A DNA stretch of 18,823 bases, taken from contig NZ_JAIWOF010000127.1 in assembly GCF_020217025.1 (NCBI RefSeq), forward strand, positions 1 to 18,823. Reading direction: 5' to 3'. Shown here in pieces: positions 11,403 through 18,823 of this stretch. A model generated the notes under the pieces. It worked only from the letters and a program-made list of their open reading frames with translations. It was not told where the DNA came from and ran no database searches. A program made the position numbers and the translations under genes. Numbering within the stretch: position 1 is the stretch's first letter; the number at the start of each line of letters is the position of its first letter. This DNA comes from Flavobacterium sp. (lineage in GTDB: Bacteria; Bacteroidota; Bacteroidia; Flavobacteriales; Flavobacteriaceae).

Positions 11403-12818
11403 TTATACTTTTTTCAATCCCATTTTTGAAGCTTTGTTCAAGATAAAATCTTTAGCAGCTTCGTATTCGTTTGGAATTTCGCCTTCTAAAATAGCTTCTT
11501 TAACGGCTTCTTTCAAAACTCCAATTTCTCTACAAGGTTTTAATCCAAATAGTTCCATTATTTCTTCGCCCGAAATTGGTGGTTGGAAAACACGAACTCT
11601 ATCTTTTTCTTCTACTTCCACAATCTTTTCTTTTACGATGTCGAAATTCTTGTGGTATTTCTGAAATTTCTTTGGATTTTTTGTAGTGATATCGGCTTTA
11701 CACAAGGTCATCAAACTATCAATATCTTCGCCAGCATCGAAAACCAAACGACGAACTGCACTATCGGTAACAATGTCTTCGGCAATTACAATTGGTCGCG
11801 AACTCATCATAACCATTTTTTGCACGAATTTCATCTTATGATTCAAAGGCATGTGCAAACGTTCAAATATTTTTTTGACCATTTTTCCACCCAAAAATTC
11901 ATGTCCGTGAAACGTCCAACCTTGTTTTTTGTTGAATCTTTTGGTTGGTGCTTTGCCAATATCATGTAACAATGCTGACCAACGCAACCAAACATCGTCG
12001 GTATTTGGACAAATATTATCTACTACTTCTAACGTATGATAAAAATTGTTTTTGTGAGTATGACCTTCGACTTCTTCAACATTATTTAAAGCGGTTAATT
12101 CAGGTAAAATAATGTCTAATAAACCCGTTTGGTACAAATGTAAAAATCCGATGGAAGGTTTATCTGAAGCTAAAATTTTATGCAATTCATCAACAATTCT
12201 TTCGCCAGAAATTATATTGATTCTATCTTTATTTTTTGAAATCGCCTCTAAAGATTCCGATTCGATTTCGAAATTCAATTGCGTAGCAAAACGAATCGCA
12301 CGCATCATACGCAACGGATCATCGGAATAAGTAATATCTGGATTTAAAGGTGTTTTGATGATTTTGTTTTTCAAATCTTCCACCCCGTTAAAAGGATCAA
12401 CTAAATCACCAAAGTTTTCAGAATTCAATGAAAAAGCTAAGGCATTTATTGTAAAGTCACGTCTTTCTTGGTCGTCTTTTAGCGTTCCGTTTTCCACTAA
12501 TGGATTTCGGCTATCGTGCGTATAAGATTCTTTTCTAGCGCCTACAAATTCCACATCAATATCATCGTAGCGCAACATGGCTGTTCCGTAGTTTTTGAAA
12601 ACCTGTACTTTTGGATGAAACGGAATCAATTCGGAAACTTTTAAAGCCAATTCAATTCCGCTACCAACGGCAACGATATCGATGTCTTTTTTGTGATTTC
12701 TGTTGAGTACTATATCGCGAACAAAACCACCAATCACATAGCATTCCAAGTTGAGTTCTTGTGCGGCTTGCGAAATGATTTTGAAGATGTTATGTTCTAA
12801 ATGTTGTTTGTAATTCAT
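11403..12818 (-). CDS. cca: CCA tRNA nucleotidyltransferase
   Basis: The enzyme adds or repairs the 3'-CCA end of tRNA. I place the start at the ATG at 12818 (471 residues, MNYKQHLEHNIFKII...). An in-frame ATG 20 codons further upstream (12878) would read through an inverted repeat and overlap the preceding gene by 35 bp, and its extra residues do not resemble the family. With the chosen start, the nucleotidyltransferase motif GGFVRD is at 30-35 with D45-x-D47 (KKDIDIVAVG), RRDFTINALAF at 119-129, DDPLRMMRAIRFA at 166-178, and a C-terminal HD domain with HDIGK (285-289). This is a class II enzyme with HD domain. The 5' leader is made of cassette sequence (see 12825-13256). It ends in a convergent-free gap before ctaA. 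Confidence 0.93.
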   Translation of the reverse strand: MNYKQHLEHNIFKIISQAAQELNLECYVIGGFVRDIVLNRNHKKDIDIVAVGSGIELALKVSELIPFHPKVQVFKNYGTAMLRYDDIDVEFVGARKESYTHDSRNPLVENGTLKDDQERRDFTINALAFSLNSENFGDLVDPFNGVEDLKNKIIKTPLNPDITYSDDPLRMMRAIRFATQLNFEIESESLEAISKNKDRINIISGERIVDELHKILASDKPSIGFLHLYQTGLLDIILPELTALNNVEEVEGHTHKNNFYHTLEVVDNICPNTDDVWLRWSALLHDIGKAPTKRFNKKQGWTFHGHEFLGGKMVKKIFERLHMPLNHKMKFVQKMVMMSSRPIVIAEDIVTDSAVRRLVFDAGEDIDSLMTLCKADITTKNPKKFQKYHKNFDIVKEKIVEVEEKDRVRVFQPPISGEEIMELFGLKPCREIGVLKEAVKEAILEGEIPNEYEAAKDFILNKASKMGLKKV

Positions 12819-12824
12819 GTTATT

Positions 12825-12842
12825 ACCGCAGATTCGCAGATT
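12825..12842 (+). repeat. Left 18-bp inverted repeat of the GxxExxY unit
   Basis: The sequence is ACCGCAGATTCGCAGATT. It is the exact reverse complement of 13239-13256 and itself contains two tandem copies of CGCAGATT (12827-12834, 12835-12842). It sits between the GxxExxY stop codon (12844) and the CCA-enzyme start codon (12818). Confidence 0.9.
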
Positions 12843-12843
12843 T

Positions 12844-13227
12844 TTATTTTTTTGAAAGTACAACTCTTTTGTGTTCAAGTGATACAGAATTAAAATTAAC
12901 TAAAAGTGCTAATTCATTTCCTGAAACTTTCAAATAATTTAAACATTGATTGTAATGAGCATTGTTAAAACAATCGACAGTTTTTATTTCTAATATAATT
13001 TCATTAAAAACTACAAAATCAGCATAAAATTTATGTTTTAATACTGTGTTTTTGTAATTTACTACATATTCTTTTTCTCTTTCGTATGGGATGTTAGCTT
13101 GTTGAAACTCAAATTCGATGGCGTCTTTATATACAATTTCAGAAAATCCTTTCCCTAAATTTTTATGGACTTCAAATAGAACTCCAATAATTTGGTAAGT
13201 TTTGTCTTTATATAAAAAATCATCCAT
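12844..13227 (-). CDS. GxxExxY protein, PD-(D/E)XK nuclease-like
   Basis: The 127-residue product belongs to the GxxExxY family (PDDEXK_3-like). The naming motif is G27-F-S-E30-I-V-Y33 after IIGVLFEVHKNLGKGF. Candidate nuclease core residues follow: D70 in FYADFVV, then E80-x-K82 in IILEIKTV, with a later helix AHYNQCLNYLK (90-100) whose Q94 and Y98 are typical of this superfamily. No biochemical function is established for the family, and the PD-(D/E)XK assignment is known only from fold and motif similarity. It is cytoplasmic, with no signal peptide. The gene almost exactly fills an inverted-repeat-bounded unit placed between two tRNA-maturation genes on the same strand, so it is probably transcribed with them. 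The start ATG is at 13227; the stop lies 1 nt inside the left repeat. Confidence 0.9.
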   Translation of the reverse strand: MDDFLYKDKTYQIIGVLFEVHKNLGKGFSEIVYKDAIEFEFQQANIPYEREKEYVVNYKNTVLKHKFYADFVVFNEIILEIKTVDCFNNAHYNQCLNYLKVSGNELALLVNFNSVSLEHKRVVLSKK

Positions 13228-13238
13228 AATATAATTTT

Positions 13239-13256
13239 AATCTGCGAATCTGCGGT
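13239..13256 (-). repeat. Right 18-bp inverted repeat of the GxxExxY unit
   Basis: The plus strand reads AATCTGCGAATCTGCGGT, the exact reverse complement of 12825-12842. It lies 6 nt beyond the stop codon (13263-13265) of the threonylcarbamoyladenylate synthase gene and 11 nt before the GxxExxY start codon. In an mRNA spanning both, the two arms could pair and loop out the entire small gene. Confidence 0.9.
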
Positions 13257-13262
13257 GCTTTT

Positions 13263-13823
13263 TTATTTGCGAATCACTTTTACCTGGCTATCTAAACCTA
13301 ATTTGATAATCGTAGAAGGATTTTTGCAAACTTTATCGTGGTGCAAATTTACTACATAGTCCACACCTTTTATAATTTCGGGACTAATTTCTTTGAAAGT
13401 TTTTGGTGTAGGTTCGCCCGAAATATTTGCTGAGGTTGAAACCAATGGTTTTTTCATGCGTTCCATCAACTTAAAACAAAAAGGTTCGGTAACTATTCGA
13501 ACTCCTAACGTATTATCTTCAGCCACAATATTTTTGGCTACATTTCGAGGATTGTCTAAAATTAAAGTGGTTGGTTTTTCCGACAAATCTAGAATTTGCC
13601 AAGCCACATCAGGAATTTCTTTGAAAACGTTGTACATCATGCGTTCGCCATTCATTAAAACAATCATGCTTTTGGTTTCTTCACGTTGTTTTAAAGCATA
13701 GATTTTTTTAACGGCTTCTTCATTAGTAGCATCGCAACCAATTCCCCAAACGGTATCAGTTGGATATAAGATAATACCACCGTTTTTAATAACTTCATAT
13801 GCGTTGTGTACCTCTGTGTTCAT
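13263..13823 (-). CDS. L-threonylcarbamoyladenylate synthase (YrdC/Sua5 family)
   Basis: The enzyme makes threonylcarbamoyl-AMP from threonine, bicarbonate and ATP, the first step of the t6A37 tRNA modification. At 186 residues it is the short single-domain (TsaC/YrdC) form without the extra C-terminal Sua5 domain. Family motifs are LYPTDTVWGIGCDA (19-32), the nucleotide/threonine pocket KQREETKSMIVL (45-56), TLGVRIV (105-111) and STSANISGEPTP (129-140), with PSTIIKL near the end. The promoter is found in the divergent gap before the glycosyltransferase gene. Its downstream partner on the transcript is the CCA-adding enzyme, now separated by the GxxExxY unit; both act on tRNA. Confidence 0.93.
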   Translation of the reverse strand: MNTEVHNAYEVIKNGGIILYPTDTVWGIGCDATNEEAVKKIYALKQREETKSMIVLMNGERMMYNVFKEIPDVAWQILDLSEKPTTLILDNPRNVAKNIVAEDNTLGVRIVTEPFCFKLMERMKKPLVSTSANISGEPTPKTFKEISPEIIKGVDYVVNLHHDKVCKNPSTIIKLGLDSQVKVIRK

Positions 13824-13839
13824 AATTTAATTATTTTTA

Positions 13840-13874
13840 CAAAAATATTCTAAAAATTTTAAAAATGAATCAAA
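13840..13874 (-). promoter_or_regulatory. Promoter for the tRNA-maturation gene pair
   Basis: On the minus strand TTTG (13874-13871) is followed after 23 bp by TATTTTTG (13847-13840), an exact TAnnTTTG match, 17 nt before the ATG at 13823. The -33 element falls inside the first codons of the divergent glycosyltransferase gene. A weaker TATTTTTA on the plus strand at 13832-13839 may serve that gene. Confidence 0.55.
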
Positions 13875-14896
13875 CATTTGTTGGATGTTCTCTTTATCAT
13901 ATATACATTTCCATTTTATTAGCACACCAAGCAAAAAAGGAAGGTAAAAAATCATTATTGATTGTAATTAATGATAGAGTTGAAAATATTGAAAAACTTA
14001 TCCCTAAAATAAATGAATTACAATTGTTTGAATCTGTTTTGTCAATAAAGAGTTACTCTATTTTAACAGATTTTAAAAAAAATTTAGGACTTTTTAATTA
14101 TATTTTCAACAGGGAGAAAGGTTTAGTTGCGCTATTTGAAAAAACTAACCCAATTTTAGTTGAGAATGATTTTTTTATAAGAAATTCTGAAATTAATTTA
14201 TTTCATGTTGTAAGAACTAGAGCCTATTTTTTAATAAAATATCCTAATAATTTATTTAGAATGGTAGAAGAAGGATTAGGTACCTATTTGCATAGAATGC
14301 CTAAATCTAGATATTTAAAAAGAAAATATTTAATTAAGTTTCCAATTTTAATGGGCTATGATAAGCAAGTTAAAGAAATTTTAGTACAGCATCCTGAGAA
14401 CATGAAGGATCAGTTTTTGAGAAATAAATCTGTAAAAATGGATTTAAATTTATTACAACAAAATTTATCAGAAATTGAAAAAAAACAATTGATTAATTGC
14501 TTTTTAGGAGATGAAATTACATTTTCTCAGGAGAAAAAAATGATATTAATAACACAGCCTTTGTCTGAAGACGGGCATTTAACAGAAAATGTAAAAATTA
14601 AGCTTTATAAAAAAGTTGTTGAAAAAGCAATAAGTGAGGGTTACAAAGTTTACATAAAACAACATCCAAGAGAAACTACCGATTATACAAAATTGTTGTC
14701 AGATGTTTCCTTTATACCCAAATTATTTCCAATAGAGCTGCTAAATTTATCTAAGGACTTTTCGTTTGACTTAGGATTTACTTTTTATTCAAGTTCATTA
14801 GAAAACTTACAGAATATTAAAAAGAAAGTTGTTTTAGGTATGGAAAACCTCAATAAAATAAATGATATCCTAGAAAATGATATAGGTTTTCTTTAA
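13865..14896 (+). CDS. Glycosyltransferase with sialyltransferase-like motifs (GT52/polysialyltransferase-like)
   Basis: The 343-residue soluble protein shows three short motifs, in order, that recur in bacterial sialyltransferases of families GT38/GT52: an acidic-Glu-Gly motif E135-E136-G137 in RMVEEGLGTYLHR, an HP motif H267-P268 in VYIKQHPRETTDY preceded by LITQPLSEDGH (228-238), and a Ser-rich motif S309-S311 in FTFYSSSLENL. These residues bind acceptor and CMP in characterised enzymes. A gene for CMP-sialate synthesis (neuA) lies 2.7 kb away, which supports the same sugar. The enzyme probably transfers sialic acid to a surface glycan from the cytoplasmic face. Confidence in a glycosyltransferase is good; the exact donor is inferred. 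The gene ends 1 bp before the convergent YejM-like gene and is A+T-rich. Confidence 0.72.
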   Translation: MNQTFVGCSLYHIYISILLAHQAKKEGKKSLLIVINDRVENIEKLIPKINELQLFESVLSIKSYSILTDFKKNLGLFNYIFNREKGLVALFEKTNPILVENDFFIRNSEINLFHVVRTRAYFLIKYPNNLFRMVEEGLGTYLHRMPKSRYLKRKYLIKFPILMGYDKQVKEILVQHPENMKDQFLRNKSVKMDLNLLQQNLSEIEKKQLINCFLGDEITFSQEKKMILITQPLSEDGHLTENVKIKLYKKVVEKAISEGYKVYIKQHPRETTDYTKLLSDVSFIPKLFPIELLNLSKDFSFDLGFTFYSSSLENLQNIKKKVVLGMENLNKINDILENDIGFL

Positions 14897-17623: not shown

Positions 17624-18286
17624 ATGAAAACTATAGCCATAATCCCAGCACGAGGCGGATCCAAACGTTTACCTGGGAAAAATACAAAACTATTGGGCGA
17701 AATTCCTTTGTTGGCCCACAGTATTCTATATGCCAAACAGCATAATTTTATCCATGCGGTTTATGTTTCTACCGATGATGTTGTTATTAAAGAAATAGCT
17801 TTGCAATATGGAGCTATAGTTATTGATAGACCTCAAGCACTTTCGGGTGATTTGGAGCCTACTGTTTCTGCTTTAAAACATGTTTTAGAATCAATTGATG
17901 AAATAATTGAAAATGTAATTTTATTACAAGCTACCAATCCACTGCGACCACAAAATTTACTACAAAATGCTTTTGCGATTTTTCAAGAACAACAGACAAA
18001 TAGTCTGTTTACCGTTTCGCGCAGTCATCATAAATTAGGAAAAATTATAAATAATAGATTTATTCCTTATAACTATGAAGTGGGGCAACGTAGTCAAGAT
18101 TTAGAGCCCTTATATTATGAAAATGGGTTGCTTTATATTTCAAAATCATCCGTTATACTAAATAATGAAATCATTACAAAAGATGCTTTTCCGTTAGAAG
18201 TAAATCATCCTTTTGCTAATGTAGATATCGATACACAAGAAGACTTTGATTATGCAGAGTATTTGCTTAACAAAAAGAACTTTTAA
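17624..18286 (+). CDS. neuA: CMP-N-acetylneuraminate (acylneuraminate) cytidylyltransferase
   Basis: The enzyme joins CTP to sialic acid to give CMP-sialic acid, the donor for sialyltransferases. The 220-residue product matches NeuA in length and motifs: [15 protein letters not shown] (6-20), the CTP-binding N-terminus; VSTDD (48-52); [10 protein letters not shown] (100-109); YENG (165-168); and the metal-binding [13 protein letters not shown] (201-213). The equivalent enzymes for legionaminic or pseudaminic acid have similar motifs, so sugar specificity rests on the neighbouring synthase, which looks like a true Neu5Ac synthase. It lies 31 bp before neuB, in the same direction. Confidence 0.93.
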
Positions 18287-18317
18287 CCCATTATCTAACA
18301 CTTTAAACCAAATAAAA

Positions 18318-18823
18318 ATGAATCCCTACATAGAAATAGCAGGAAGAAAAATAGGACCCGATTTTCCACCATTAGTTATCGCTGAAATCGGAATTAATCA
18401 CGAAGGCTCTTTGCAAGTAGCTAAAGAAATGGTAGATGCTGCACATAGAGCAGGAGTTGAGGTCGTGAAACACCAAACTCATATTGTGGCTGACGAAATG
18501 AGTGGTGCTGCCAAAAAAGTTATTCCAGGCAATGCCGATGTTTCCATTTACGAAATTATGGAACGTTGTGCTTTAAACGAAGAAGACGAATTAGAATTGA
18601 AAAATTACGTGGAAAGTAAAGGTATGATTTTCATTTCAACTCCTTTCTCGCGAGCTGCAGCCGAGCGTTTGAAAAAGTTTGATATTCCAGCTTATAAAAT
18701 TGGTTCTGGAGAATGTAATAATTATCCATTATTGGAGCATATTGCTTCTTTTGGAAAACCTGTTATTTTAAGTACGGGTATGAATACCATAGCAAGTATT
18801 CAAAAAGCGGTAGCTATTTTTGA
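18318..18823 (+). CDS. neuB: N-acetylneuraminate synthase, 5' part (runs off the right edge)
   Basis: I translated this frame by hand: ATG at 18318, open for 168 codons to the window edge with no stop. The enzyme condenses N-acetylmannosamine with phosphoenolpyruvate to make Neu5Ac. The TIM-barrel N-terminus is complete: [20 protein letters not shown] (21-40), [14 protein letters not shown] (49-62, including K51 and Q53), [18 protein letters not shown] (69-86), [14 protein letters not shown] (105-118) and [14 protein letters not shown] (127-140). It is strikingly similar, by memory, to Neu5Ac synthases of pathogenic Proteobacteria such as Neisseria meningitidis NeuB, more so than to legionaminic or pseudaminic acid synthases. 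The C-terminal antifreeze-like SAF domain is beyond the window. Confidence 0.93.

Follow-up and report, generated by a model that had tools for sequence, protein, structure and literature searches.

The cassette, its nuclease and its neighbours

In the window, by which we mean the whole 18,823-nucleotide stretch of Flavobacterium DNA analysed here, a cassette of 432 bp (12825..13256, minus strand) lies between two genes of tRNA maturation that were assigned by profile matches. These are cca (11403..12818, minus strand), the downstream neighbour, encoding the CCA tRNA nucleotidyltransferase (CCA-adding enzyme), and tsaC (13263..13823, minus strand), the upstream neighbour, encoding a TsaC/Sua5-type threonylcarbamoyladenylate synthase. 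The cassette contains one gene for a GxxExxY protein of 127 aa (12844..13227, minus strand), which has the same direction as tsaC and cca. The outer arm on the cca side (12825..12842, plus strand) is ACCGCAGATTCGCAGATT, two tandem copies of CGCAGATT, and the inverted arm on the tsaC side (13239..13256, minus strand) is the exact reverse complement of ACCGCAGATTCGCAGATT. An earlier note on this DNA had described a perfect 18-bp inverted repeat with CGCAGATT twice in each copy, and both the tandem words and the coordinates agree exactly, with gaps of 1 and 11 nt between the arms and the gene and of 6 nt between each arm and the neighbouring gene. As the same note had remarked, there is no known transposase inside the unit, the GxxExxY gene being the only one found between the arms. 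Its “two tRNA genes” had to be corrected to the protein genes cca and tsaC; ARAGORN finds no tRNA gene in the window. Elsewhere in the window, the region of 13865-14896 and 17624-18823 includes a polysialyltransferase-like gene (PF07388) and genes that we take, by motifs, to be NeuA- and NeuB-like, and it is likely a sialic-acid-type surface glycan locus.

The protein belongs to the GxxExxY family over its whole length (TIGR04256, 130.8 bits with a cut-off of 35) and matches PF13366 (PDDEXK_3) over its whole length as well (118.7 bits with a cut-off of 22). The residues G27xxE30xxY33 and D70/E80/K82, already pointed out from the single sequence, are all invariant in an alignment of 61 sequences, and in a second one of 64 sequences E30, Y33, D70 and K82 are invariant, with G27 and E80 conserved in at least 90%. 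The structure is predicted to adopt a PD-(D/E)XK fold, whose nearest models are nucleases of Cas4/RecB type, and the nuclease core of this type with D, E-x-K and QxxxY is present. Pfam, NCBIfam and the fold all give PD-(D/E)XK and not an HUH Y1 transposase. Cas4, the family of SSO0001, has four conserved cysteines for an Fe-S cluster; in neither alignment is there a cysteine in the invariant or at least 90% conserved columns. Sequence search for relatives with solved structures gave nothing significant, and neither a functional study of GxxExxY nor a description of its cassette system was found in the open-access literature searched. Two other assignments were tried and dropped: no PADLOC model for defence genes matches GxxExxY, and for a phage origin there were 0 matches among 50,697 phage records and weak matches only in PHROGs. 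The family is abundant: one database search gave 4030 proteins, and 122 of the 247 genomes sampled from the phylum carry it.

Inverted arms at GxxExxY genes and at two gene junctions

The host genome (2.53 Mb, 238 contigs) carries four GxxExxY genes, and each of them has, by eye, its own inverted arm pair, with four different arm sequences. We scored each locus by its ungapped inverted repeat (IR) within the 150-nt flanks, with a threshold of 12. The locus in the window (L003) scores 18, and none of 585 shuffled flank pairs reached 16. Of the four host loci, three were scored 18, 19 and 17 by the script; the fourth (L010) received no more than 6, as the script chose an ORF start that overlaps with the arms. 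In a set of 117 GxxExxY genes, mostly from Flavobacteriaceae (117 of 119 distinct proteins, genes shorter than 100 aa or near a locus end being left out), 90 reached the threshold and 27 stayed below it, whereas of the 402 other genes present in these loci 16 reached it. Among the controls, 1.2% of 585 shuffles and 24% of 3000 mispaired flanks did so, the latter because orthologues have arm types in common. In a wider set, composed of a phylum sample (with 40 further regions added by choice, about one per genome) and seven plasmid loci, 46 of 78 GxxExxY genes reached the threshold and 32 did not; other genes reached it in 4 of 63 cases, and mispaired flanks in 4.2% of 2998. At least two inward tandem CRCDRA motifs, mostly spaced by 8-11 nt, occur on both sides of 48 of the 78 loci. 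The arm-bearing loci span three phyla, namely Bacteroidota, one Spirochaetota locus and one Alphaproteobacteria locus; arms of this style stand at plasmid loci from Treponema, Bernardetia and Bacteroides and, judged by score, also at the one from Sphingomonas. At the Gemmatirosa locus just one side carries a motif hairpin, the Persicobacter locus has no convincing arms, and in L153 (Fusobacteria bacterium ZRK30 plasmid) the repeat around the gene is direct instead of inverted and contains AATCCGTG. The search for repeat-flanked GxxExxY genes at other loci, which the earlier note had proposed, was thus successful, so the arms are not unique to the window, and the association of the gene with inverted arms is general and beyond chance.

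To describe the junction in relatives, we used loci that were the best-scoring matches rather than a random sample, as in the C150 and phylum sets. The GxxExxY gene stands between cca and tsaC in 86 loci examined (83 without three copies of the own locus), from Flavobacterium, Mariniflexile, Confluentibacter, Gelidibacter, Tamlana and Wocania, and the genes are co-directional in the twelve loci inspected. Four of the best-scoring loci (L076, L092, L105 and L143) come from MAGs titled Limnohabitans, Klebsiella pneumoniae, Bdellovibrio and Rhizobium, yet are Flavobacterium-like, so we regard them as mislabelled or mixed bins. A degenerate arm consensus finds both arms in 81 of the 83 loci, a count which is not independent of the IR scores since the consensus was derived from the same loci, and the difference between arms is 0.96 nt for those of one locus and 3.74 nt for those of different loci. 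Among co-directional contexts the gene is in sense orientation in 72 of 77. The site preference seems to be for a sense position within pairs of co-directional genes rather than for the essential-gene junctions considered in the earlier note. The gene may be expressed by read-through, or opposing units may be selected against.

The junction is not always occupied. In a survey of 30 cca-tsaC junctions, 12 contain the full gene, 12 have no gene, one has a truncated gene with both arms, and five could not be judged. The truncated one (L036, G001) keeps both arms intact around an internally shortened gene, of which 68 aa are matched, and is plausibly an intermediate between a cassette and a gene-less hairpin. 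The gene-less junctions mostly hold other hairpins (by eye), and that of L041 is only 11 nt long. In L022, L023, L026-L032 and L034 these hairpins are about 75-130 bp long, differ by species and are built of short tandem words, such as TTTAAAGTTTAAAG, TTTGAAAATTTG and TTCGACGAAGGAGAAATC. At a second junction, that of the host's C150 copy, the GxxExxY gene is full in 13 of 30 loci and truncated in one (L174), 12 loci have no gene, and four have a different gene start. The arms of the 13 full units differ between species, and a solo arm remains at one gene-less site (L182). Three of the four loci with a different start have an ORF of 168-172 aa, another small gene inside inverted repeats (L175:2085-2603, L176:2071-2577 and L185:910-1416). 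The ORF of L176 is YcxB-like (PF14317, 35.8 bits with a cut-off of 23.3), and that of L175 falls just below the cut-off with 23.1 bits; this gene is possibly a second cargo of repeat-ended cassettes. Units are thus present in some relatives and absent in others at the same junctions, as an empty-site comparison was expected to reveal if the unit moves. The same unit at the cca-tsaC junction in all relatives, with no empty sites and with arms absent from other GxxExxY genes, would have spoken against mobility according to the earlier note, and it is not what we observed.

Exchange of whole units and dispersed hairpins

Trees and flank comparisons reveal that arm, gene and arm are swapped between species as one unit. 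From the 83 loci, two without both arms were removed (81), then L069 and three loci with short flanking proteins (77), and after removal of identical GxxExxY sequences 71 remained. Distances of cca and tsaC correlate well (r 0.87), while those of GxxExxY and cca+tsaC correlate weakly (r 0.35). On the tree of the flanking genes, 84 arm changes coincide on both arms versus 14.5 expected. Most of the changes vanish on the GxxExxY tree, where the two arms have 60 and 37 changes, with 11 coinciding and 1.9 expected. From trimmed alignments of the 71 loci, the GxxExxY tree accounts for the arms in 95 steps, compared with 269 for the flanking tree and about 320 when labels are shuffled. The GxxExxY data and the flanking data each reject the tree of the other (AU test, with 2000 replicates, a number below the program's advice). 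The topology tests and the arm steps led us to reject fast evolution of GxxExxY in place without exchange. The arms follow the GxxExxY tree and not the flanking tree; therefore, arms and gene travel together and have been exchanged between hosts.

The exchange can be seen directly in close relatives. Eleven pairs of loci have both flanks at DNA identities of at least 90%, of which five have a swapped unit (64-77% identical) and six an unswapped one (93-99%), and the arm type is different in all five swapped pairs. The pairs are not independent, with loci recurring in four of the six unswapped ones; ten different loci make up the five swapped ones. Four further pairs (L106/L015, L116/L014, L119/L013 and L131/L017) do not differ in any of the three proteins and probably represent the same genomes twice; both members were kept in the count of 81 of 83, and one of each was dropped from the 11-pair set. 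For example, in the clearest swap, Flavobacterium turcicum (L118) and F. erciyesense (L094) share 99% protein identity in cca, 100% in tsaC and 75% in GxxExxY, and their arms are of the CGCAGATT and CGCAAATT types, respectively. Across 6 kb, all 37 windows outside the cassette are at least 88% identical, and the five touching it comprise three at 73-76% and two edge ones at 93 and 96%. Identity is lost right after the tsaC stop and regained at the cca start codon. In four swap pairs the outside windows below 80% number 0 of 37, 0 of 29, 0 of 17 and 1 of 24, and the fifth pair (L109/L099) is less clean with 17 of 38. In L102/L016 the common outer sequence, in which a remnant of an older arm survives, reaches to a few bases from the inner arm, and it is at the inner arm that the two units start to differ. 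Ordinary homologous recombination with very short tracts could give the same swap pattern. Mobility of the repeat-gene-repeat unit, as proposed earlier, is well supported on an evolutionary time scale by the swaps, the presence and absence at junctions and the dispersed gene-less copies. A recent insertion at the own locus did not hold up, because the cca-tsaC unit is old and common to Flavobacterium and its relatives.

Besides, the arms occur without the gene. Searching the host genome for the 18-bp repeat, as had been suggested, yielded two gene-less hairpin-like pairs, 44 and 96 bp across, both of which fold better as DNA than 200 shuffles. Among 149 genomes of the family, the pattern CRCDRATTN{0,2}CRCDRATT has a mean of 8.7 matches in 37 GxxExxY-positive genomes versus 0.82 in 112 negative ones, and at least seven matches are found in 12 of 37 versus 2 of 112 (Fisher p 7e-7, ignoring kinship). 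In 44 of the 112 negative genomes there is at least one match, with 20 in G079, 7 in G118 and 5 in G172. Seven repeat-bearing negative genomes were searched again with the A2 profile, in a run with no positive control, and no GxxExxY gene was found; therefore, the repeats can exist without a detectable GxxExxY gene. In G079 the gene may have been lost, or another mobiliser may be at work.

Copies across a genome tend to match the unit beside cca in arm type, by which the genomes were grouped (50 of 80 loci chosen by arm type, 49 searched). The following counts include the arms themselves and are uncorrected for kinship, the CACGAATT-rich genomes being near relatives: 11 genomes with CACGAATT arms contain 312 copies of CACGAATT, 1 of CGCAAATT and 0 of CGCAGATT; 15 with CGCAAATT arms contain 117 of CGCAAATT, 48 of CGCAGATT and 21 of CACGAATT; 16 with CGCAGATT arms contain 88 of CGCAGATT, 64 of CGCAAATT and 4 of CACGAATT; and six others contain 25 of CGCAAATT and 1 each of CGCAGATT and CACGAATT. 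In seven genomes of the CACGAATT group the unit is beside cca without tsaC within 700 nt. The genome of L131 (G250), with arms CACAGATT/CGCTGATT, has no copy of the CGCAGATT, CGCAAATT or CACGAATT patterns.

In F. chilense, several hairpin copies at unrelated loci have a body of 60-70 bp in common. F. chilense has the hairpin at two sites that are empty in F. reichenbachii (G246); at one of the two, F. piscis (G249) has it as well, and other relatives hold different content there. The hairpin is nested in, or adjoins, an older one of CGCAAAG type, and the junctions of filled and empty sites are too diverged for reading any target-site duplication. With terminal inverted repeats, multiple related copies and a non-coding length, the gene-less copies have the features of MITEs. 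Same-strand arrays of arm repeats, with steps of about 100-120 bp or larger, are seen at G248:C6:85727-88924 and G217:C8:119185-119805. A known structured RNA on the arms was considered and dropped, since four loci compared with Rfam at the gathering threshold gave only Flavo-1, off the arms. In F. chilense, this Flavo-1 (RF01705, 46.7 bits; L258:4799-4873) lies in 74 nt between repeat stretches of a repeat-rich junction.

Proposed mechanism and rival explanations

The 432-bp stretch is, in our judgement, probably a mobile cassette of REP/RAYT-like architecture around an unrelated nuclease, whose protein would cut its own arms. The ends of the cassette would be the inverted arms of tandem CRCDRA motifs, and GxxExxY, as a small Cas4/RecB-like PD-(D/E)XK nuclease, would most likely read these motifs and cut the DNA at the arms or next to them, probably while the arms are extruded as hairpins in single-stranded DNA. 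Cutting might then lead to the replacement of the cassette by another one at the same junction and to the spread of gene-less hairpins with the same ends in trans. DNA binding, cleavage, hairpin extrusion and the role of GxxExxY, rather than another enzyme, as the mover are what we infer from the genomic patterns. Recognition of CRCDRA by the nuclease would fit the arms, in which the type-defining columns 7 and 15 have one mismatch between arms in 160 cells, and 38 of 76 arm-arm mismatches fall on the degenerate D position. Some residues of the protein track the arm type, for example those at positions 14 and 114.

This architecture resembles REP/RAYT systems, in which one small nuclease gene is enclosed by two inverted repeats, hairpin doublets cognate to it are scattered between genes, the repeats co-vary with the gene, and the presence of the gene correlates with repeat number (PMC2817692, PMC3116915); RAYT subclass 2.6 is flanked by atypical structures with copies elsewhere (PMC6006769). 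GxxExxY shares the gene between inverted repeats, the dispersed cognate repeats, the co-variation and, with the exception of G079 and with kinship ignored, the correlation with repeat number. Unlike in REP/RAYT, the enzyme is a Cas4/RecB-like PD-(D/E)XK protein and not an HUH Y1 transposase, the arms are tandem CRCDRA motifs, and whole cassettes are swapped at a fixed junction. Since the genomic signs are nearly the same as those so described and the enzyme is different, GxxExxY is better seen as a variant of the architecture than as a member of the RAYT family.

Several rival explanations address the same observations. It seems unlikely to us that a RAYT (HUH transposase) from another place in the genome moves the hairpins as ordinary REPINs, with GxxExxY a passenger or captured by chance between two REPs. 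Hairpin-forming REP doublets with RAYTs are already known (PMC3116915, PMC2817692), RAYT subclasses 2.4 and 2.6 occur in Bacteroidetes (PMC6006769), the YcxB-like gene at the C150 junction sits within similar repeats, and the pattern-bearing negative genomes, above all G079, would be natural for a mover other than GxxExxY. However, the arms accompany GxxExxY loci of three phyla, their type follows the GxxExxY phylogeny with the genome-wide copies tending to follow the type, and the four genes of one host have four different arm pairs. A homing-type selfish nuclease, cutting cassette-less or other-arm alleles so that repair from the donor copies the cassette and leaving hairpins as decayed remnants, is a rather poor candidate: it would suit swaps at one fixed junction with near-identical flanks, the shortened gene of L036 and the solo arm of L182, but the common hairpin body at unrelated loci and the filled and empty orthologous sites indicate that the hairpins themselves have been copied.

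We give little credit to a device at the RNA level, in which the arms pair in a tsaC-GxxExxY-cca transcript for mRNA processing, stability or termination. The arms would be complementary in the transcript and the genes are largely in sense orientation, but the differences between arms have no G-U preference (15 preserving, 21 breaking and 40 transversions), and the two half-copies in tandem change in concert, for which pairing by itself gives no reason; the RNA stem was rejected for the lack of a wobble bias among the 76 differences. That the gene merely lies by chance within a repeat-rich intergenic region, as the many other hairpins of 75-130 bp at gene-less junctions might propose, is scarcely credible given the neighbour-gene, mispaired-flank and shuffle controls and the motif in other phyla.

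Returning to the nuclease cassette, its sequence patterns suggest that the GxxExxY unit and the gene-less hairpins may together be an unrecognised kind of small mobile element. A stronger version, to which we incline only tentatively, is that of a separate class, in which a Cas4-like nuclease of about 15 kDa, with no DDE, HUH, serine or tyrosine recombinase, would recognise CRCDRA ends, swap cassettes at fixed operon junctions and spread hairpins in trans, and could explain many intergenic palindromes of Bacteroidota and other phyla. The cassette offers a concrete, testable role for a widespread protein family, ties one class of short palindromic repeats to one enzyme, and supplies natural cognate arm types for specificity tests. 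If the reading is true, the REP/RAYT architecture also evolved around a second type of nuclease chemistry, unrelated to the first.

Other known systems share single features with the cassette. Unlike Cas4 and solo-Cas4, GxxExxY is a protein of 127 aa with no cysteine in the invariant or near-invariant columns. Its two neighbours, from a Pfam scan of five window ORFs, are cca and tsaC, and a term search in the Cas4 phylogenomics paper PMC5704561 did not find PF13366 named. Like MITEs, the gene-less hairpins have the same terminal repeats and a common body at many loci, the junctions being too diverged to read any target-site duplication of the MITE kind. Like free-standing homing endonucleases, the unit has a single nuclease gene and replaces alleles at a fixed site with preserved flanks, but unlike them it is bordered by inverted repeats of its own, its arms come in many types, and hairpins that share its ends are dispersed.
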